A DNA stretch of 32,210 nucleotides from Actinomycetota bacterium. GTDB taxonomy: Bacteria > Actinomycetota > Rubrobacteria > Rubrobacterales > Rubrobacteraceae. How positions within the stretch are numbered: position 1 is the stretch's first letter; the number at the start of each line of letters is the position of its first letter. The position numbers and the translations under genes were made by a program. The stretch spans positions 1 through 32,210 of the forward strand of contig JAIVIG010000290.1 in the NCBI GenBank assembly GCA_020200675.1. The letters are read 5' to 3'. A model generated the notes under the pieces. It was given only the letters and a program-made list of their open reading frames with translations. It was not told the origin of the DNA and searched no databases. This document shows positions 15,062 through 25,797 of this stretch, in pieces.

Positions 15062-16020
15062 TGCGCCTGGACCCGGCAGGCGAGGGGCCGCTGGCCGGCG
15101 AGGGGCTGGATCTCGCGGGGTGCTACGAGCTGTGCCGGTGGGTGCAGAAGGGGCACAGCAGGACCTACTATTTTTCGACGAGCCTCTTCCCGGCGGAGGT
15201 CCGGCCGCACGTACACGCGCTCTACGCCTTTATGCGCTACGCCGACGAGATCGTGGACAACCCGGGCGCTACGACCCTCGACGAGCAGCTCACGGGTCTG
15301 AGATACTTCGAGGAGGAGACCCTGGCGGCGGTGGCCGGGGAGCCGGTCGCGAACCCCGTTTTGCGGGCGTTCGCGAACACCGTGCTCCTGCGCGGGATCG
15401 GCCCGGACCTCATAGAGGCGTTCATGAGAAGCATGAAGATGGATACCGGCATCTTCCGCTACCCGACCTACGAGAACCTGGAGGAGTACACCTACGGGAG
15501 CGCCGCGGTCGTGGGGCTCATGATGTGCCGCGTGATCGGGGCGACGGACGAGGCAGCGAACCCGCACGCCGAAGCCTTGGGCGTCGCGATGCAGCTCACG
15601 AACTTCCTGCGCGACGTACGGGAGGACTGGGCGCGAGGAAGGGTCTACCTGCCGCTCGAAGACCTGGAGCGCTTCGGGTACGCGGAGGAGGAGTTGGGAC
15701 GCGGCGTCGTGGACGAGAGGTTCGTGGAGTTGATGCGGTTAGAGATCTCGCGCGCCCGGGGGCTCTACCGCGTGGCCGGTGAGGGGATGCGATACATTCC
15801 CCGGGGACGCCGCTATCCGGTCGTCGTGGCGGGGCGGCTCTACGAGGCGATTCTGGACCGTATCGAGGCGCAGGGCTACGACGTGTTCACGAAGAGAGCG
15901 CAGACCTCTCTCCCGCACAAGCTGCGGGTCGCCGGGGCGTGCGCGTGGGGAGATCCGAAAGAGCTCGTGGCGCGGGTCCGCGCCAGCGGCAAGCCCGGTG
16001 GTGTTGCAATTCACGGGTAA
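15061..16020 (+). CDS. crtB: Phytoene synthase CrtB
   Basis: This enzyme condenses two geranylgeranyl diphosphates to phytoene, the first committed step of C40 carotenoids. It is 319 residues. The two Asp-rich metal motifs are DEIVD at 62-66 and DVRED at 185-189 (in QLTNFLRDVREDWARGRVYLP). YALYAFMRYADE-type residues (LYAFMRYADE) and GIFRYPTYENLEEYTYGSA are also family signatures. The start is GTG at 15061, overlapping the crtI stop. The promoter for the following metH leader lies inside the last codons of this gene, so the carotenoid pair probably has no long downstream extension. Confidence 0.95.
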   Translation: MRLDPAGEGPLAGEGLDLAGCYELCRWVQKGHSRTYYFSTSLFPAEVRPHVHALYAFMRYADEIVDNPGATTLDEQLTGLRYFEEETLAAVAGEPVANPVLRAFANTVLLRGIGPDLIEAFMRSMKMDTGIFRYPTYENLEEYTYGSAAVVGLMMCRVIGATDEAANPHAEALGVAMQLTNFLRDVREDWARGRVYLPLEDLERFGYAEEELGRGVVDERFVELMRLEISRARGLYRVAGEGMRYIPRGRRYPVVVAGRLYEAILDRIEAQGYDVFTKRAQTSLPHKLRVAGACAWGDPKELVARVRASGKPGGVAIHG

Positions 16021-16032
16021 TCGTGTTGTAAT
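16004..16032 (+). promoter_or_regulatory. Promoter of the SAM riboswitch-metH transcript
   Basis: TTGCAA (16004-16009), a 17-base spacer and TGTAAT (16027-16032) form a good housekeeping promoter, overlapping the end of crtB. Transcription would start near 16040, about 25 bases before the riboswitch P1 helix. Confidence 0.65.
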
Positions 16033-16060
16033 CTCTTGATCGTCTCGGGATTTCCCGGAC

Positions 16061-16192
16061 GGTGCTCATCGAGAGCGGTGGAGGGACGGGCCCTTTGAAG
16101 CCGCGGCAACCGATGGTTCGAAGGAATACGATGTTCTCGAGGACTGTGGCAGGTGCCAACTCCTGCGGAGGGGACTCCGAGAGATGAGGCGC
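16061..16192 (+). ncRNA. SAM-I (S-box) riboswitch
   Basis: The aptamer is recognised from its conserved blocks in order: GAGAGCGGTGGAGGGACGGG with CCCTTTGAAGCC, CGGCAACC, CAGGTGCCAACTCCTGCGG and GAGAGATGAGG. P1 is closed by CTCATC (16065-16070) and GATGAG (16184-16189). SAM-I riboswitches turn off methionine genes when SAM is abundant, which fits the metH gene 290 bases downstream. No classical terminator with a T-run follows. Instead a hairpin covers a ribosome binding site, suggesting control of translation. Confidence 0.96.
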
Positions 16193-16212
16193 AACGGGCT
16201 TTTTCGTTCGCA

Positions 16213-16255
16213 CCTCTCTCGCTCCTGTCCCGGGCGGTTCGCGCCTAGAGAGAGG
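16213..16255 (+). promoter_or_regulatory. Riboswitch expression platform: hairpin hiding a Shine-Dalgarno
   Basis: CCTCTCTC (16213-16220) pairs perfectly with GAGAGAGG (16248-16255), the ribosome binding site of the small ORF that follows. The aptamer's 3' side carries GAGAGA (16180-16185), which could pair instead with TCTCTC. That gives two exclusive states: site free without SAM, site hidden with SAM. This is inferred from pairing by eye. Confidence 0.6.
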
Positions 16256-16260
16256 AAGAT

Positions 16261-16398
16261 TTGCTTTTGTTGGATCACAGGGAGAAGCTCTACGAAGGCA
16301 TACTCGTCGGAGCCATAGGTACGCTCCTGGACGACCACGGGCCGCCCCCGGCCTTGGTGTCACATCTGGCGGGGAACGTGGCAGAAGCGGTTAGCTAG
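16261..16398 (+). CDS. Small 45-residue ORF between the SAM riboswitch and metH
   Basis: This gene is missing from the ORF track because of its length and TTG start. It begins TTG at 16261 (or TTG at 16267), preceded by GAGAGAGGAAG, and ends TAG at 16396-16398. The product is (M)LLLDHREKLYEGILVGA, then IGTLLDDHGPPPALVSHLAG, then NVAEAVS. The composition and third-position GC look like coding sequence. It is likely helical and soluble. I do not recognise it. It is either a small protein under direct SAM control or a leader peptide coupling riboswitch state to metH, whose start is 83 bases beyond. Confidence 0.6.
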   Translation: MLLLDHREKLYEGILVGAIGTLLDDHGPPPALVSHLAGNVAEAVS

Positions 16399-16481
16399 AA
16401 CACGGTCGAGAGCACCCGGTCCGGCGAGACGACGCTCGACGGTTCGGATAGGTAAACAAGGCATAGCACAGGGAAGGGTTT

Positions 16482-19400
16482 ATGGTTCTCAAACGCACGG
16501 TAGGTGAGGAGAGAGAGGCCCGGGCAGAAGAATTCCGGGCCCAGTTAAAGCAGCGCATCATGCTTCTCGACTGCGCGATGGGCACCATGATCCAGCAGTA
16601 CGAGCTCTCCGAGGAGGACTACCGGGGGGAGCGCTTTAAGGACCACCCGGGGGATATCAAGGGCAACAACGACCTGCTCTCTATAACCCAGCCCCAGATC
16701 ATCCGCGACATCCACGAGGCCGTGCTGGAGGCCGGCGCGGATATCGTAGAGACCAACACCTTCAGCTCGACCTCCATCGCCCAGGCGGACTACAAGATGG
16801 AGGACCTCGCCTACGAGCTGAACTACGAGTCGGCGCGCGTCGCCCGCGAGGCGGTGGACGGCATCACCGAGAGGACGCCGGACAGGCCGCGCTTCGTGGC
16901 GGGCGCCACCGGTCCGACCAACCGCACGGCCTCCCTCTCTCCGGACGTGAACAACCCCGGCTTCCGCAACGTCACCTTCGACGAGCTCAAGGAGGCGTAT
17001 AAGGAAGCGACGCGGGGGCTCGTGGAGGGCGGCGTGGATCTGCTGCTCGTCGAGACCATCTTCGACACGCTGAACGCGAAGACGGCGATCTTCGCGATCA
17101 AGGAGTACCTCGACGATGAGGGTCTGGACGTTCCTATCATGATCTCCGGCACCATCACCGACGCGAGCGGACGCACGCTCTCCGGGCAGGTGACGGAGGC
17201 GTTCTGGAACTCCGTGCGCCACGCCGATCCCATAAGCGTCGGCCTGAACTGCGCGCTGGGGTCGAGCGAGCTGCGGCAGTACATCGAGGAGCTCTCGGGG
17301 ATCGCGGAGACGCACGTCAGCGCCTACCCGAACGCCGGTCTCCCCAACGAGTTCGGCGAGTACGACGAGACCCCCGAACACATGGCCGCGGAGATAGGGG
17401 AGTGGGCCGCGAACGGCTGGCTTAACATCGTCGGGGGGTGCTGCGGCACCACGCCGGAGCACATAAAGGCGATGGCGGACGCGGTCGCGGGGCATCCGCC
17501 GCGCGAGGTGCCGGAGCTTTCGCGCAAGCTGCGCCTGAGCGGGCTCGAGGCGGTCAACATCGGGCCGGACTCGCTGTTCGTGAACGTTGGGGAGCGGACG
17601 AACGTTACGGGATCGGCGCGGTTCAAGGACCTGATCCTGAACGCGGACTACGACACGGCGCTGGAGGTAGCGGCCGAGCAGGTCGAGAACGGCGCCCAGA
17701 TCATCGACGTCAACATGGACGAGGGGATGCTCGAGGGCGTGGAGGCGATGATCGACTTCCTGAACCTCACCGCCGCGGAGCCGGACATCTCGCGCGTGCC
17801 CGTGATGATCGACTCGTCCAAGTGGTCCATCATCGAGGCGGGCCTGAAGCGCGTGCAGGGCAAGGCGGTCGTCAACTCCATCAGCATGAAAGAGGGCGAG
17901 GAGGAGTTCGTCCGCCAGGCGCGACTGCTGAAGAGGTACGGGGCAGCCGTGATCGTGATGGCCTTCGACGAAGAGGGCCAGGCGGACACCAAGGAGCAGA
18001 AGGTCGAGATCTGCACCCGCGCTTATAAGATCCTCACAGAAGAGGTCGGTTTCCCGCCGGAGGACGTAATCTTCGACCCGAACGTCTTCGCCATCGCCAC
18101 CGGCATCGAGGAGCACAACAACTACGGCGTGGATTTCATCGAGGCGGTGCGTGAGATAACTCAGACCCTCCCCCACGCCAAGACTTCGGGCGGCATCTCG
18201 AACGTCTCGTTCTCGTTCCGCGGCAACAGCCCGGTGCGCGAGGCAATACACGCGGTCTTCCTCTACCACGCGATAAACGCCGGCCTGACGATGGGCATAG
18301 TGAACGCCGGCCAGCTCGCCGTCTACGACGACATAGACGAGGAGCTGCGCGAGGCCGTCGAAGACGTGGTGCTCAACCGCAGAGACGATTCGACCGAGCG
18401 TCTGCTGGAGCTGGCGGAGAAGTACCGGGACCAGGGCGAAGAGGTGGAAGCCGAGGCCCAGGAGTGGCGGTCGTGGCCGGTCGCAAAGCGGTTGGAGCAC
18501 GCCCTGGTCAAGGGCATCGCCGAGTTCGCCGAGGACGACGCCGAAGAGGCCAACGGCACGGTCATAATGGCGACCGTGAAGGGCGACGTGCATGACATCG
18601 GCAAGAACATCGTCGGGGTGGTCCTGCAGTGCAACAACTTCGAGGTCATAGACCTCGGGGTGATGGTACCCGCGGCGAAGATCCTGGAGACCGCTAAAGA
18701 GAAGGGCGCGGACATCATCGGGCTCTCGGGGCTCATCACGCCTTCGTTGGACGAGATGGTCCACGTTGCCTCCGAGATGCAGCGCGAGGGTTTCAACATA
18801 CCGCTGCTCATCGGTGGGGCGACGACCTCGCAGACGCACACGGCGGTCAAGATCGCGCCTGGTTACGAGCAACCCACGATCCACGTGAAGGACGCCTCGC
18901 GCGCCGTGGGCGTGGCCCAGAACCTGGTGAGCGAGGGCCGTCGTGAAAGCTACGCCGAGCAGATCGCCGCCGAGTACGAAGAGGTGCGCGTCAAGCACGC
19001 CGGGCGCAGGTCCAAGACCAGGCTGGCCACGCTGGAGCGTGCGCGGGCCAACAGGACGAAGATAGAGTGGGAGGGGTACGCCCCGCCAAGGCCGAACGTC
19101 TTGGGGGTCAGGACGTTCGACGACTACCCGCTGGAGGAGGTCCGGGACTACATCGACTGGACTCCCTTCTTCCACTCCTGGCAGATGAAGGCCAGCTACC
19201 CCAAGATTTTGGACGACCCCGAGAAGGGCGAGGAAGCCCGCAAGCTCTTCGAGGACGCCCAGAACCTCCTGGACCGCGCCATCGAGGAAGGTTGGCTAAA
19301 GGCGCGCGCGGTCATCGGCCTCTTCCCGGCCAACGCGCTACCGAACGACGACGTGGAGGTCTACACCGACGAGTCGCGCAGCGAGGTGCTGACGGAGCTC

Positions 19401-20066
19401 CACTTCCTGCGCCAGCAGAAGCAGAAGCCGCCGGGGCGTCCCAACCAGTCTCTGGTCGACTTCGTCGCGCCGAAGGAGACGGGGCTCGAGGACTACGTCG
19501 GTCTCTTCGCCGTGACGGCCGGGGTCGGAGCGGACGAGATAGCGCGACGCTTCGAGGAGGACAACGACGACTACAACGCCATCATGATCAAAGCGCTCGC
19601 CGACCGCCTGGCCGAGGCGTTCGCCGAGCTGATGCACAAGAAGGTCCGCAAGGAGTTCTGGGGCTACGCGGCGGACGAGGGCCTGGACGCCGAGGACCTC
19701 ATCCGGGAGGAGTACCGCGGCATCCGCCCCGCCCCCGGCTACCCGGCCTGCCCCGAACACACCGAGAAGCGCACCCTCTGGGAGCTTCTAGACGTGGAAG
19801 AGAACGCCGGCATCACGCTCACCGAGAGCTGCGCGATGTCGCCGGGCGCGGCGGTCAGCGGCTACTACTTCTCCCACCCGGACTCCCGCTACTTCGGCGT
19901 CGCCGAGATCGGCCGCGACCAGGTATCAGACTACGCCGAGCGCAAGGGCATGGCCCTCGAAGTGGCAGAGAAGTGGCTCGCCCCGAACCTCGCCTACGAC
20001 CCGGATCAGCCGAGCGGCTCCGGGGAGACGGAGGTCCCCCAAGCCCAGAGCAAGTCCGCGGGGTAA
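16482..20066 (+). CDS. metH: Cobalamin-dependent methionine synthase
   Basis: This enzyme transfers the methyl group of methyltetrahydrofolate to homocysteine through cobalamin. At 1194 residues it is full length with all modules. The homocysteine-binding barrel has zinc Cys in LNCALG (about residue 256) and [10 protein letters not shown] (about 320). The pterin-binding domain begins [13 protein letters not shown]. The cobalamin cap and B12 domain follow, with DVHDIGKN holding the axial His (about residue 704). The SAM-binding reactivation domain contains [15 protein letters not shown] near the C terminus. The ribosome binding site is AGGGAAGGG just before the ATG. It is controlled by the SAM-I riboswitch upstream and ends convergent to a Uma2-family gene 27 bases away. 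Confidence 0.97.
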
Positions 20067-20800: not shown

Positions 20801-22961
20801 TCAGCCCGAGGACGAAGCAGCTCTAACTATGGCAGAATCTGCTTCCTTCGACTCGCGCAGAAGGGCGCGTATCTTGCTGGGGCTCACGGGGAGAGCCGTT
20901 ATAGAGCCCGGCATTCCGAGCGCGTCCTCTACCGCGCTGACTACGGCTGCCCCGCACCCTACGGTCCCCCCTTCGCCGGCTCCCTTGAGCCCCAGAGGGT
21001 TGTCGGGTGACGGCGCGTCTTCGCACACGAGCGTCTCCACACGGGGGACTTCGGCCGCCGTCGGTTCCATGTAGTCGATAAAGGTCGCGGCGAGGGGTTG
21101 CCCCGAATCGTCGTAGCGGAACTCCTCGAGCAAAGCTCCCCCGAGACCCTGCGCCGCCCCACCGATAAGCTGACCCTCGACGAGCGTGGGGTTGACCGCG
21201 CGGCCGACCTCGTAGGCAATAAAATAGCGTTTGATCTCTACTCCTCCGGTCTCCGGGTCGATCTCTACCTGGGCCAGGTGCACCCCATAGGGGTAGGTCA
21301 TGTGGTCCACGGAGAAGGTGCGGCGGGCGCCGAGGCCCGGCTCCTCTCCGTCGGCCAGACCGCTGTGGGGCTCGCAGGCGACCGCTATCTCCCCCAGGGA
21401 GGGGCAACAGGTCCGTCTCCGTGTGTACCACCTCTATCTCCTCGGGAGGGACGCTCAGTTGCTCCGCGGCGATCTGGGCGAGTACCGTCTCTATCCCCTG
21501 CCCCAGCGAGGCGCCGCCGGTGATCACGCGGACAGAACCGGTAGGGTCGACCTCGACGATGGCCTCCTCATAAGGTCCCGTGCCGCTCTTCTCGAGGAAG
21601 TAACCGACGCCCGTGCCGACCAACCGCTCCCCGGCTCGCAGCTCTCGCGCCTCCTTCTCCCACTCGTCGAAGCCGGAGCGCGCGATCGCCTTGTCTAACA
21701 ACCCCTCGTAGTCTCCGGCGTCGAGCACGACGTCGGTGTCCAAAGTGGACAAGGGCCTGGTGTGCGGCAGCTCGGAGGTTTCGAGCAGGTTTATCCTCCG
21801 TAGTTCCAGCCGGTCGATGCCGAGCCGCGCGGCCGCCACGTCGAGCAGGTGCTCGCGGGCGAAAGTGGACTCGTAGCGACCCGGCCCACGATAGGTGCCG
21901 CACGGGGTCTTATTGGTGAGCGCGACGTGTGCCGTGCCCTCGTACGCCGGGACCCTGTAAGGTCCGGGCAGCATGGCCAGCGTCAGGTCGGGGACGATGA
22001 CGCCGTGGGTTCGGATGTAGGCGCCGTTGTCGTGCCACACCTCGTCGCGCAAGCCCAACAGCCGGTGTTCCTCGTCAAAGGCCGCCCCGATCCGGTGTAC
22101 CTGCTCGCGGGAGTGGTTCGCCGCCACCAGGTTCTCGGCACGGTCTTCGATCCACTTCACCGGGCGTCCGGTCTCGCGAGCGAGGTAAGGCACCAAAAAG
22201 TCCTCCGGGTAGAACTCGCCCCGGACGCCGAAGCCGCCCCCCGCGTCGGATTTCTTCATGCTGATCCGGTTGAGGGGCATTCCCAGCATCTGCGAGAGAA
22301 CCCGCCGGTTGAAGTGCGGCACCTTGGTGGCGCCCCAAATCGTGAGGTGGTCGCTCCCGGCGTCGTACTCGGCCACGAGCCCCCGTGTCTCCAGCGGAAC
22401 CCCCGAATGCCGCCCGATCTTCACCTCGATCTCGACCACACAAGCGGCGTCGTGAAATGCCGTTTCGACGTCCCCGTAGCCCATACGCAATGTCGCTGCC
22501 TCGCTCTCGAAGCCGTCCACCGGCGAGGCATCGGCTTCGATGGCGCTTCGGGCATCCAGGACGACCGGTAGCTCTTCGTACTCTACCCTGATGAGCTCGA
22601 CGGCGTCTTCGGCGAGGTACGGGTCCTCGGCGAGCACGACGGCGATGGGTTCTCCTACATAGCGCACCCTGTCGCGCGCCAGCACGGGTTGCAGGAAGTC
22701 GTCGAGCTGGTGTTTGGTGCGCGTGCGGATCGGGATGGGCCTCGTCCAGGCGAGGTCCTCCCCGGTGAGTACCGCTTCAACTCCCGGAAGGGCGAGCACT
22801 TCGTCCGTCCGCACGTTCTTTATCCGGGCGTGAGCGTGCGGGGATCTGAACACCCTCATCCACAGCTGCCCGACGCGATTGACGTCGTCGACGAAGTGGC
22901 CGAGGCCGCGCAGCAGGCGGCGGTCTTCGAGCCGCCCAATTCGCCGCCCAACGACGCTCAC
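20801..22961 (-). pseudogene. Molybdenum hydroxylase large subunit (CoxL/XdhA type), deleted and frameshifted
   Basis: The reading frame opens normally at GTG (22961, overlapping the 2Fe-2S gene stop as GTGA) and carries the family domains: RRIGRLEDRRLLRGLGHFVD, the GGGFGVRGEFYPEDF region, CGTYRGPGRYEST (form-II-like active-site loop) and EVVHTETDLLP. Near 21400 it jumps frame. The true C-terminal part continues in the 21310-20801 ORF (SLGEIAVACEP, MTYPYGVHLAQVEID, GAGEGGTVG with the catalytic Glu). Between DLLP and SLGEIA about 75-80 residues that the family normally has are missing, including the GTFGSRS-like molybdopterin loop. The tail of the 712-residue track ORF past this point is out of frame. 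Protein function is very likely lost. Confidence 0.85.
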
Positions 22962-23527
22962 TGCGCGTGATCTCCCGCCTCACGCAGGGGCGACACACCC
23001 TCCACCCGGTCTTCGGAGGTCTCCTGTGAGACCGCGCTATCGACCGCCTCCGTCCCCCCGTTTTTGCCCGCTGCGGCCAGTACCGCCTCGACGATGCCCT
23101 GGTAGCCCGTACACCGGCACAGGTTGGACGACATCACCTCCCTCACTTCTTCCTCCGTGGGATCCAGCTTCTCCCTCAGTAGCGCCGTCGCCAGCATCAG
23201 GAACCCGGGCGTGCAGAACCCGCACTGCAGCGCGTGGTGGGCCGAGAAGGCCTCCTGCAAGGGGTTGAGCTGCCCATTCGATTCGAGACCCTCGACGGTC
23301 TCGATCTCGCGCCCGTCGGCCTGGACACCGAAGGCGAGGCAGGACCTGACCGCGAGGCCGTCGACGAGGACGGTACACGCGCCGCAGATCCCGTGCTCGC
23401 ACCCCAGGTGCGTACCCGTGTAGCCGAGATCGTGGCGCAGCACGTCGGCGAGGGTCCGCCGTGACTCGACGTCTACCTCGTGAAGCCGGCCGTTTACGGT
23501 GATCCTAACCGAGTGAATGTCTTTCAT
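22958..23527 (-). CDS. coxS: Molybdenum hydroxylase 2Fe-2S subunit (CoxS type)
   Basis: This small subunit carries two 2Fe-2S clusters from the molybdenum centre to FAD. It is 189 residues. The plant-ferredoxin-type cluster uses C43, C48, C51 and C63 (GCEHGICGACTV). The second, helical-bundle cluster uses C102, C105, C137 and C139 (CGFCTPG and LCRCTGY). All eight ligands are present. About 35 C-terminal residues rich in Glu, Ser and Asp go beyond the family core. Start and stop overlap both neighbours by four bases (ATGA and GTGA), showing a coupled operon. The symbol names the family only; CO as substrate is not implied. Confidence 0.93.
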   Translation of the reverse strand: MKDIHSVRITVNGRLHEVDVESRRTLADVLRHDLGYTGTHLGCEHGICGACTVLVDGLAVRSCLAFGVQADGREIETVEGLESNGQLNPLQEAFSAHHALQCGFCTPGFLMLATALLREKLDPTEEEVREVMSSNLCRCTGYQGIVEAVLAAAGKNGGTEAVDSAVSQETSEDRVEGVSPLREAGDHAQ

Positions 23528-25797
23528 GAAAGATTCCCTTCGCGCGCTCGTGAGTCTCTGATCGCGGCCCGCAGGAGGTCCGGGGTTATAGGGAGCCGGT
23601 CGATCTTGACGTCGAGGTGCGAGAGGGCGTCAGCTACCGCGCTGGCGACGGCGGCGGGGGCCCCCATTGTGCCGCCCTCCCCCACTCCCTTCGCCCCCGT
23701 CTCGGTGTACTCGCAGGGCGTCTCCAGGTGTAGGATCTCGACGGGGGGAATCTCCATCGCCGTCGGGACGAGGTAGTCCATCAGCGTGGAGGTGACGAGT
23801 TGTCCCTCGTCGTCGTAGATGAGCTGCTCGTACAACGCCGCGGCGATCCCCTGCGCCACGCCTCCCCGCACCTGTCCCTCGACGATCATCGGGTTGATCA
23901 TAACCCCGCAGTCCTCCGCAACCACGTAACGCTCTATGCGCACGTTCCCCGTCTCCGGGTCGATCTCCACCACTACCCCGTGCGTCGCGTTCGAGAACGT
24001 GCCCGGCGGATCGAAGCCGGCACTCGCTTCGAGGCTCCCCGCCTCCCCCTCCGGTAGCCGTTGTGCTTCCAGGTAGGCTGCGCGCGCCACCTCGGGCACC
24101 CCGACGTAGCGCTCGGGAGAGCCGCTGACGGAGACCCTGCCGTCCTCTATCTCAAGGTCCCCAGGAGCTGCCTCGAGCAGGTGGCTCGCCACCTCCTTGA
24201 TGCGTTCCGCGAGGAGCGCGGCCGCCTTCTTCAACTCGTCGGCGACGATCTGGGCCAGGGTCGTCTGGTGTCCCTGCCCATGCCCGCAGGTGCCGACCGC
24301 GACGGCGACGTTCCCGGAGGGGTCCATCCTCACGTGGGCGTTGTCCAGCCCCGGTGTGATCGCCATCTTCCTCAGGGCGAACGCTCGCGTCCCGTAACCC
24401 GTCCGCTCCGCGAAACAGGAGAATCCCAGGCCGATCAAACGCCCCTCGCGCCTCGCCTCTTCCTGCCGCTCCTTCCACGCGGGGAAGTCCAGCGCCCCGG
24501 CACACTTCTCCAGCGACTCGATGTAGCTGCCGGGATCGTAGACGACCCCCGTCGGGCTCTCGTAGGGGAACTCGTCGGCGGAGATCAAATTGCGCCTGCG
24601 TATCTCCACCGCGTCCATACCCAGACGCTTCGCGGCCTTCTGCATCAGACGCTCCATCGCGAAGGTGAACTGTGGCCTCGACACCCCGCGATACGGCGCC
24701 ATGGGAACCTTGTTCGTGGCCACCGCGCGCGCCCGCGACCGGTAACGCTCCAGGCGATAGGGACCCGGCATCTCCGTCGCCGCCATGAGCGGCTCGACCC
24801 CGCACGTAAACGGGTAGCACGAGTAGGCGCCCACGTCGCACAGGATGTCCGCCTCCAGGGCCAGCAGCTTCCCTTCCTCGTCGAAGGCGGCCGAGGTCTC
24901 GTACCTCTGCTCGTGGCCGTGGAAGGAGGCCGTGAGGTTCTCCTGCCTGTCTTCGGTCCACTTCACCGGCCGCTCCAGGCGCTGGGCAGCTATCGCCACG
25001 AGCAACTCCTCGCGGCTGACGACGCACTTCTGCCCGAAGCCCCCGCCGACGTCGGGCGCTACGACGCGGATTCGCTGTTGCGGGATCTCCAATACCTCCG
25101 CGAGCGCGGTGCGCACGATGTGCGGCACCTGCGTGGAGGTGTGCAGGACCAGCTTGTCCTCCCGGCCGTCCCACTCGGCCAGGCACCCCCGCCCCTCCAT
25201 CGGGACCGCCGCCAGCCGCCCCGTCTCGAACGTCGCCTCGACGACGACCGCGGCCCGCTCGAAGGCCTCGTCTACCCCGGAATCGTCAGACGAACGCACG
25301 TCGACCATCACGTTGTCTTGCATGTCCTCGTGTACGGTCCTTGCGCCTTCGGCTAGGGCCGCGTCCAGCGAGACCACTGTCTCCTGGCGCTCGTACTCGA
25401 CCGCCATGGCGTCCGCGCCGTCCTCCGCGGCATGAGGAGAGTCCGCCAGGACCAGCGCAACCGGTTCGCCGGCGTGGCGAACCCTCTCGCCCGAGAGCAG
25501 GGGCATGTCGACCCCGACGAACTCCGGGCGGTGGAGCACCGGACGCAGCCCGGGTACGTCCTCCAGGTCGGAGCGGGTGATGACCCTCTCCACGCCGGGG
25601 ACCTCAAGGGCGTCCTCGACGGAGACCCTCTCCACGCACGCGGCGCCGAACGACGACCGGGCGAAGGCGGCGTAGAGCATCCTCGGACGCTCGATGTCGT
25701 CCACGAACATCCCCCGGCCGGTGAGGTGCCGCGCGTCCTCGACCCTGGGGACCGACCTGCCGACCCAGGACCTGCCGGAGGAGCCGTCACCCGGCAT
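23524..25797 (-). CDS. Molybdenum hydroxylase large subunit (CoxL/XdhA type) with internal deletion
   Basis: This 757-residue molybdopterin-cytosine-dinucleotide subunit has an open frame. Family regions are VGRSVPRVEDARHLTGRGMF at the start, APDVGGGFGQKCVVSREELL, MAPYRGVSRPQFTFAMERLM (active-site loop, not the AYxCSFR of true CO dehydrogenase), GHGQGHQTTLAQIVADEL, and the catalytic Glu in GVGEGGTMG. After VADEL the sequence goes straight to KKAAALLAERIKEVASHLLE. The roughly 40 residues normally between them (VVHGDTD through GTFGSRS to GGSAV) are absent, in frame. That segment contacts the cofactor, so activity is doubtful. It overlaps the FAD subunit gene by 11 bases. The substrate is unknown. 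Confidence 0.85.
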   Translation of the reverse strand: MPGDGSSGRSWVGRSVPRVEDARHLTGRGMFVDDIERPRMLYAAFARSSFGAACVERVSVEDALEVPGVERVITRSDLEDVPGLRPVLHRPEFVGVDMPLLSGERVRHAGEPVALVLADSPHAAEDGADAMAVEYERQETVVSLDAALAEGARTVHEDMQDNVMVDVRSSDDSGVDEAFERAAVVVEATFETGRLAAVPMEGRGCLAEWDGREDKLVLHTSTQVPHIVRTALAEVLEIPQQRIRVVAPDVGGGFGQKCVVSREELLVAIAAQRLERPVKWTEDRQENLTASFHGHEQRYETSAAFDEEGKLLALEADILCDVGAYSCYPFTCGVEPLMAATEMPGPYRLERYRSRARAVATNKVPMAPYRGVSRPQFTFAMERLMQKAAKRLGMDAVEIRRRNLISADEFPYESPTGVVYDPGSYIESLEKCAGALDFPAWKERQEEARREGRLIGLGFSCFAERTGYGTRAFALRKMAITPGLDNAHVRMDPSGNVAVAVGTCGHGQGHQTTLAQIVADELKKAAALLAERIKEVASHLLEAAPGDLEIEDGRVSVSGSPERYVGVPEVARAAYLEAQRLPEGEAGSLEASAGFDPPGTFSNATHGVVVEIDPETGNVRIERYVVAEDCGVMINPMIVEGQVRGGVAQGIAAALYEQLIYDDEGQLVTSTLMDYLVPTAMEIPPVEILHLETPCEYTETGAKGVGEGGTMGAPAAVASAVADALSHLDVKIDRLPITPDLLRAAIRDSRAREGNLS

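Follow-up and report, generated by a model that had tools for sequence, protein, structure and literature searches.

The SAM-I riboswitch that precedes metH in the window (the whole analysed stretch of 32,210 nucleotides, from a Rubrobacteraceae genome that we call G000) is very probably a translational OFF-type switch, which in this family serves an operon of a bifunctional homocysteine S-methyltransferase/methylenetetrahydrofolate reductase (HMT/MTHFR) gene and metH. In the window the bifunctional gene has been deleted down to a remnant, the short open reading frame (ORF) that now stands behind the switch, and we infer that metH is reached from there by polarity.

The leader and its two predicted folds

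A cmscan search of the window returned the SAM-I aptamer RF00162 as the sole RNA-family match, at 16063-16190 on the forward strand (77.3 bits, E 1e-16, against a gathering score of 44.4 bits). The match is full-length (model positions 1-108), carries a variable insert of 35 nt at one model position and includes a P1 helix in which CUCAUC (16065-16070) pairs with GAUGAG (16183-16188). Binding of SAM by this aptamer is predicted from the covariance-model match. The features of the locus, all on the forward strand, are the following.

16004-16009 and 16027-16032 (+): promoter-like words TTGCAA and TGTAAT, 17 nt apart, read from the sequence
16039-16063 (+): 5' leader hairpin directly before P1, predicted fold, -14.2 kcal/mol
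16063-16190 (+): SAM-I aptamer, RF00162 by cmscan
16181-16189 (+): 5' arm of the predicted anti-sequestor, GAGA.GAGG, overlapping the P1 3' strand, from the unconstrained minimum-energy fold
16213-16220 (+): anti-Shine-Dalgarno (anti-SD) arm, the 5' arm of the sequestor, CCTCTCTC, from compensatory changes across the family leaders
16248-16255 (+): 3' arm of the sequestor, the Shine-Dalgarno sequence (SD) GAGAGAGG, from complementarity, conservation and folds
16261-16398 (+): small ORF, by BLASTP an in-frame deletion remnant of the bifunctional HMT/MTHFR gene
About 16267-16341 (+): N-terminal part of the remnant, by BLASTP
About 16345-16395 (+): C-terminal part of the remnant, by BLASTP, with the stop codon at 16396-16398
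16482-20066 (+): metH, cobalamin-dependent methionine synthase, full, by Pfam and NCBIfam

The promoter-like words recur with equal spacing in G000, G003 and G007, and TATAAT stands as the -10 word in G002, G006 and G008; the consensus promoter scanner skipped 16004-16032, since it accepts a second hexamer only with A as its second base. A hairpin at the site of 16039-16063 was seen in all nine genus leaders examined (the window, G001-G004 and G006-G009), each time with a differing sequence, and this pre-P1 hairpin of the HMT/MTHFR-type leaders lies outside the RF00162 model. The upstream neighbour of the riboswitch is a gene of the phytoene/squalene synthase type that ends at 16020. Elsewhere in the window, molybdopterin-dependent aldehyde oxidase/xanthine dehydrogenase genes occupy 20823-25797 on the reverse strand, where two large-subunit-like genes (20823-22961 and 23524-25797) enclose a [2Fe-2S] subunit gene (22958-23527).

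The segment 16063-16290 was folded without constraint and with the six P1 pairs forced, the latter as a mimic of bound SAM, using a folding model that holds neither aptamer tertiary contacts nor the ligand. In the unconstrained fold (-88.4 kcal/mol) GAGA 16181-16184 and GAGG 16186-16189 pair with the entire anti-SD arm, and the SD bases 16250-16255 are open at 37-85%. When P1 is forced (-82.5 kcal/mol), the 8-bp sequestor appears unasked and openness of the SD bases falls to 0-23%, all except one being at 0-1%. The gap of 5.9 kcal/mol between the two folds is one that ligand binding could pay. In a transcript that reaches only 16240, before the SD has been made, the anti-sequestor state is the lower one (-75.3 vs -62.7 kcal/mol). 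The P1 3' strand is part of the anti-sequestor, which therefore cannot coexist with P1 or with the sequestor, and in the model this mutual exclusion is as expected for a translational OFF switch. With SAM bound, P1 would form and leave the arm at 16213-16220 free to pair with the SD arm at 16248-16255, so that the ribosome is excluded; without SAM, the P1 3' strand and adjoining bases would capture the anti-SD arm and the SD would open.

The original prediction, made from the sequence of the window, is well borne out on these points. It had named an S-box aptamer, a perfect 8-bp helix whose 3' arm serves as SD for the ORF (confirmed as CCTCTCTC with GAGAGAGG) and a purine competitor derived from the aptamer, which in the unconstrained fold pairs the whole of CCTCTCTC; it had also called for folds with and without an aptamer constraint, and these reproduced two states, with the SD closed in the presence of P1 and largely open in its absence. 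State separation is weak across the relatives: when the shortened family leaders were folded with an equilibrium model, a shift in SD openness above 0.3 was seen in just 5 of 35, and under a similar energy model the anti-sequestor exceeded a probability of 0.5 in 13 of 35. Switching may depend on kinetics, or lineages may differ in their anti-sequestor.

Conservation of the sequestor in Rubrobacteraceae

The search for SAM-I aptamers in 61 related genomes found them in all 37 Rubrobacteraceae genomes (13 genera), and 35 leaders were of the window type. All of these have a broadly equal platform, which runs from the P1 3' strand through a variable hairpin, a CCTCTC-like arm, a loop and a GAGAGG-like SD arm to the start codon. 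The SD-sequestering arms could be placed in register in 33 of the 35 homologous leaders, the two in which they could not being those of G011 and G024. In the 33 leaders 75.6% of the cells were paired, compared with 46.7-62.1% when the arms were slid against each other, and cells with a change on both sides numbered 27, compared with 5-19 in the slid controls. Own arms also paired better than arms swapped between leaders (0.756 vs 0.714 of cells, with none of 1000 swaps as high), a test that is inflated by relatedness; the slide control retains relatedness. Compensatory arm pairs include CCTCTCTT/AAGAGAGG in G023, CCTCTCCC/GGGAGAGG in G012 and AAACCCCT/AGGGGTTT in G019. By this comparison the sequestor is more than chance pairing and is conserved with compensatory changes. 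The platform would be of the translational, SD-sequestering kind, as the SD-occluding helix forms in the model when P1 forms.

Conservation in related genomes was the check that the original prediction had proposed for both the sequester arm and the small ORF, and the two fared differently. The arm was retained, as just described. At the equivalent SD the relatives carry an HMT/MTHFR gene of about 617 codons instead of the ORF, so that the SD and start which had been assigned to a small gene in its own right serve a much longer one; its start codon lies 7-11 nt past the equivalent SD in most of the relatives scored.

A translational mechanism is in itself of an ordinary, known kind, and outside Firmicutes it is the usual one for riboswitches. 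The original prediction had contrasted the locus with the terminating SAM-I switches of Firmicutes, a contrast that loses its force here, since the genome belongs to Rubrobacteraceae (Actinomycetota), where translational control is expected. Action on translation outside Firmicutes is already known for riboswitches, SAM-I included (PMC2258182, PMC7270179), and for a SAM-I switch it has been proven in Xanthomonas (PMC7270179). The SAM-IXcc switch of the met operon of Xanthomonas campestris resembles the window in its SAM-I aptamer, its anti-SD hairpin that closes the SD with SAM and its mainly translational repression, but differs in that it sequesters the AUG as well, has a hairpin which is opened by uncharged initiator tRNA, and controls an intact gene (PMC7270179). 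The yitJ-type S-box leaders share with the relatives of the window both the aptamer class and the HMT/MTHFR target. The Bacillus yitJ-type switch acts by transcription termination, whereas the platform of the window sequesters the SD and its gene has, by the homology described below, been deleted in the window lineage.

Two further SAM-I leaders of G000, which belong to metX (G000:C157 and G000:C436), are ordered like the leader in the window, with aptamer-derived purines followed by a matching pyrimidine arm and an SD arm, and likewise look translational; they differ in their arms (GCCTCTTCTAC/GTAGAAGGAGGC) and in the intact target gene. In the metX-type leaders (L001 = G000:C436, L002 = G000:C157, and relatives) an SD, GGAGG, stands 4 nt before a near-invariant ATTACT (ATC in two), and the metX ATG follows 17-18 nt from the SD. 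A 13-codon frame started by ATT or ATC (like ITTEYDTRPGGRG*) overlaps the metX start, and G003 has ACG in place of ATG; this may point to a rare start codon or to a very short ORF overlapping metX. Other SAM-I matches, the majority of them weaker, fall outside the two leader types (G005:C645, G005:C315, G007:C50, G008:C78, G013:C67, G013:C143, G019:C21, G026:C125 and G027:C1:2295936).

The small ORF as a remnant of the bifunctional gene

The ORF has TTG candidates at 16261, 16267 and 16270 and ends at a TAG (16396-16398). The original prediction was right in placing an open frame behind the SD; its 45 codons count from 16261, and homology favours TTG 16267, with 43 codons, as the likely start. 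That the switch controls translation of the ORF also stands in part: the sequestor covers its SD and both folds were obtained, but what is controlled appears to be the remains of a gene. The first matches of the small-ORF sequence were weak (13-21 bits), with residues 2-28 and about 22-45 falling at opposite ends of a frame. In G002, G005, G006 and G008 two pieces of the ORF (one of residues 2-28 or 1-27, the other reaching to residue 44 or 45) match, in order, both ends of one frame of 620-690 codons that lies directly behind the riboswitch. The intact gene of G002 (L064:640-2490) has 617 codons, matches NF006396 (648.9 bits), the family of the bifunctional HMT/MTHFR, and is followed after 50 nt by metH. 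BLASTP aligned the small ORF with its residues 1-27 at 56% and 600-616 at 71% identity and gave nothing credible between residues 27 and 600. Because both ends of one long gene match and nothing between them does, we read the window ORF as an internal-deletion remnant; on this homology it consists of about 26 codons from the start and about 17 from the end of the HMT/MTHFR gene, some 570 codons having been lost in frame from the interior. The 45 residues gave no match to a Pfam or NCBIfam domain. The ORF is thus homologous to NF006396 but, as far as domain searches can tell, without the S-methyltransferase and MTHFR domains, a remnant and not a member. A small conserved protein family had been entertained for the ORF and was dropped, as there was no match in Pfam or NCBIfam and its sequence corresponds to the ends of a larger gene.

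Two other genomes of the genus carry remnants of their own. That of G007 is a 56-codon in-frame fusion with breakpoints other than those of the window, and that of G003 is a frameshifted pseudogene with about 75 N-terminal codons in frame, a last stretch NVIEPIV and a C-terminal end equal to that of the window. In MTHFR searches of the 37 genomes, canonical MetF as a stand-alone gene (about 290-300 bits) was confined to G000 (C14:3599-4417) and, as orthologues of it, to G002, G003, G006 and G007; G002 and G006 have MetF and the bifunctional gene together, and every other genome in which MTHFR matched strongly has just the bifunctional gene. Since a separate MetF is present in all three remnant genomes and absent in most of the family, the bifunctional gene would have become dispensable.

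In a MetH tree G000 pairs with G003 (91/93), and G007 stands apart with weak support. A weakly supported fork separates the MetF-bearing genomes, together with G008, from G001, G004 and G009, where the bifunctional gene occurs without MetF; G008 and several other relatives are incomplete assemblies. The closest named MetH is 77% identical and comes from an uncultured Rubrobacteraceae bacterium (L081), other MetH proteins of named genomes being distant. The simplest order of events would be that MetF was gained in the ancestor of the group and the bifunctional gene was then deleted in G000/G003 and in G007. There may have been one deletion, or two or more, since the tree separates G007 from G000/G003 with weak support. 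In the family the switch governs an operon of the bifunctional gene and then metH; in the window lineage, with MetF present, the gene was deleted internally and its ends persist, fused as an ORF of 43-45 codons that kept the riboswitch-controlled start.

Fate of the switch and proposed control of metH

The intact metH (NF007024, 2043.6 bits; TIGR02082) has an SD of its own, AGGGAAGGG at 16470-16478, and begins after a gap of 83 nt (16399-16481) from the stop of the remnant. These facts, and the decay of the remnant at the protein level, would suit a switch that is a relic with no target left, metH being transcribed and translated independently. We consider this unlikely, as the promoter-like words, the aptamer, the anti-SD arm and the SD arm are intact in three gene-loss lineages while the remnants changed. 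The anti-SD arm is CCTCTCTC in each of G000, G003 and G007, the SD arm retains the family form in each, and the three aptamers score far over the cut-off; in the remnants, by contrast, roughly one in five of the first and second codon positions is altered. If the arms had drifted at even half the rate of remnant positions 1 and 2, the approximately 48 unchanged arm positions would have a probability of about 0.006, a rough estimate by hand that takes no account of shared descent. It thus seems that the switch was preserved after its target gene had disappeared, a survival that is unusual.

The ORF might also be a genuine small gene or a regulatory leader peptide whose sequence is important, which we hold to be improbable. 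Its frame is open behind a good SD and start, and in-frame remnants occur in G000 and G007 alike; an open frame of this length is unsurprising in DNA of 65% G+C. Both of its halves are ends of the HMT/MTHFR protein, no protein family matches it, the version of G003 is frameshifted, and neither in-frame remnant retains the GDGA motif of the intact proteins. Changes at codon positions 1 and 2 are about as frequent as those at position 3: between the N-terminal part of the remnant and G008, positions 1/2/3 differ 7/5/5 times, against 0/0/8 between intact G002 and G008 in the same part. The remnant appears to be under relaxed codon constraint, with no sign of selection as a protein.

Intrinsic termination upstream of metH, the mode of most described SAM-I switches in Firmicutes, is very improbable. 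Its absence had been part of the original prediction, and a scan of 15900-16600 indeed found no terminator-like site; there is a T5 at 16200-16204, but this run falls within the loop of the hairpin formed by the anti-sequestor, and the relatives do not conserve it. An artefact of this metagenome-derived assembly (543 contigs, 87% complete, 5.6% contamination), with HMT/MTHFR intact in the organism, is hardly credible and a split of the gene by assembly was dropped: G003 and G007 carry their own remnants, no fragment with the missing middle occurs elsewhere in G000 (no intact copy or closely matching fragment, the best other match having 33-34% identity), and the remnant is diverged from every intact relative and shows no clean cut, so that the loss of the gene is taken as real.

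The direct output of a maintained translational switch would be initiation at the remnant, and its intactness suggests that the metH transcript is still controlled through remnant translation. Most likely, translation of the remnant would determine if the mRNA survives and is continued into metH; our better guess is that, when the stretch 16256-16481 is left untranslated, the transcript would be lost by Rho or RNA decay. The original prediction had suggested coupling, read-through or Rho as routes to metH, and these stay conjectural. Such polarity seems to us likelier than close coupling in view of the separate SD of metH and its start 83 nt past the remnant stop. The B12 riboswitches of Mycobacterium tuberculosis (metE, ppe2; PMC11260477) are alike in being actinobacterial translational OFF switches whose effect passes through a short ORF. 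The ppe2 upstream ORF (uORF) overlaps the downstream start (AUGA) (PMC11260477), an overlap that is absent in the window, where the ORF comes from a deleted gene; given the 83-nt gap and the separate SD of metH, tight termination-reinitiation of the ppe2 type is unlikely. We put forward, tentatively, that a former operon gene now acts as a uORF: its SAM-gated translation, into a peptide without meaning, would control metH by polarity, in at least one lineage of the genus and perhaps in several.

The interest of the locus lies in what became of a riboswitch once its gene was deleted, and in a comparative series of natural deletions. A riboswitch-controlled small ORF can be a fossil, which annotation pipelines and searches for small proteins would class as a leader peptide or as a new small protein. 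The family offers a natural polarity experiment, in which one switch and metH are found with a gene of 617 codons, 56 codons, 43-45 codons or a frameshifted version between them, and this deletion series allows a direct test of the dependence of metH on upstream translation.
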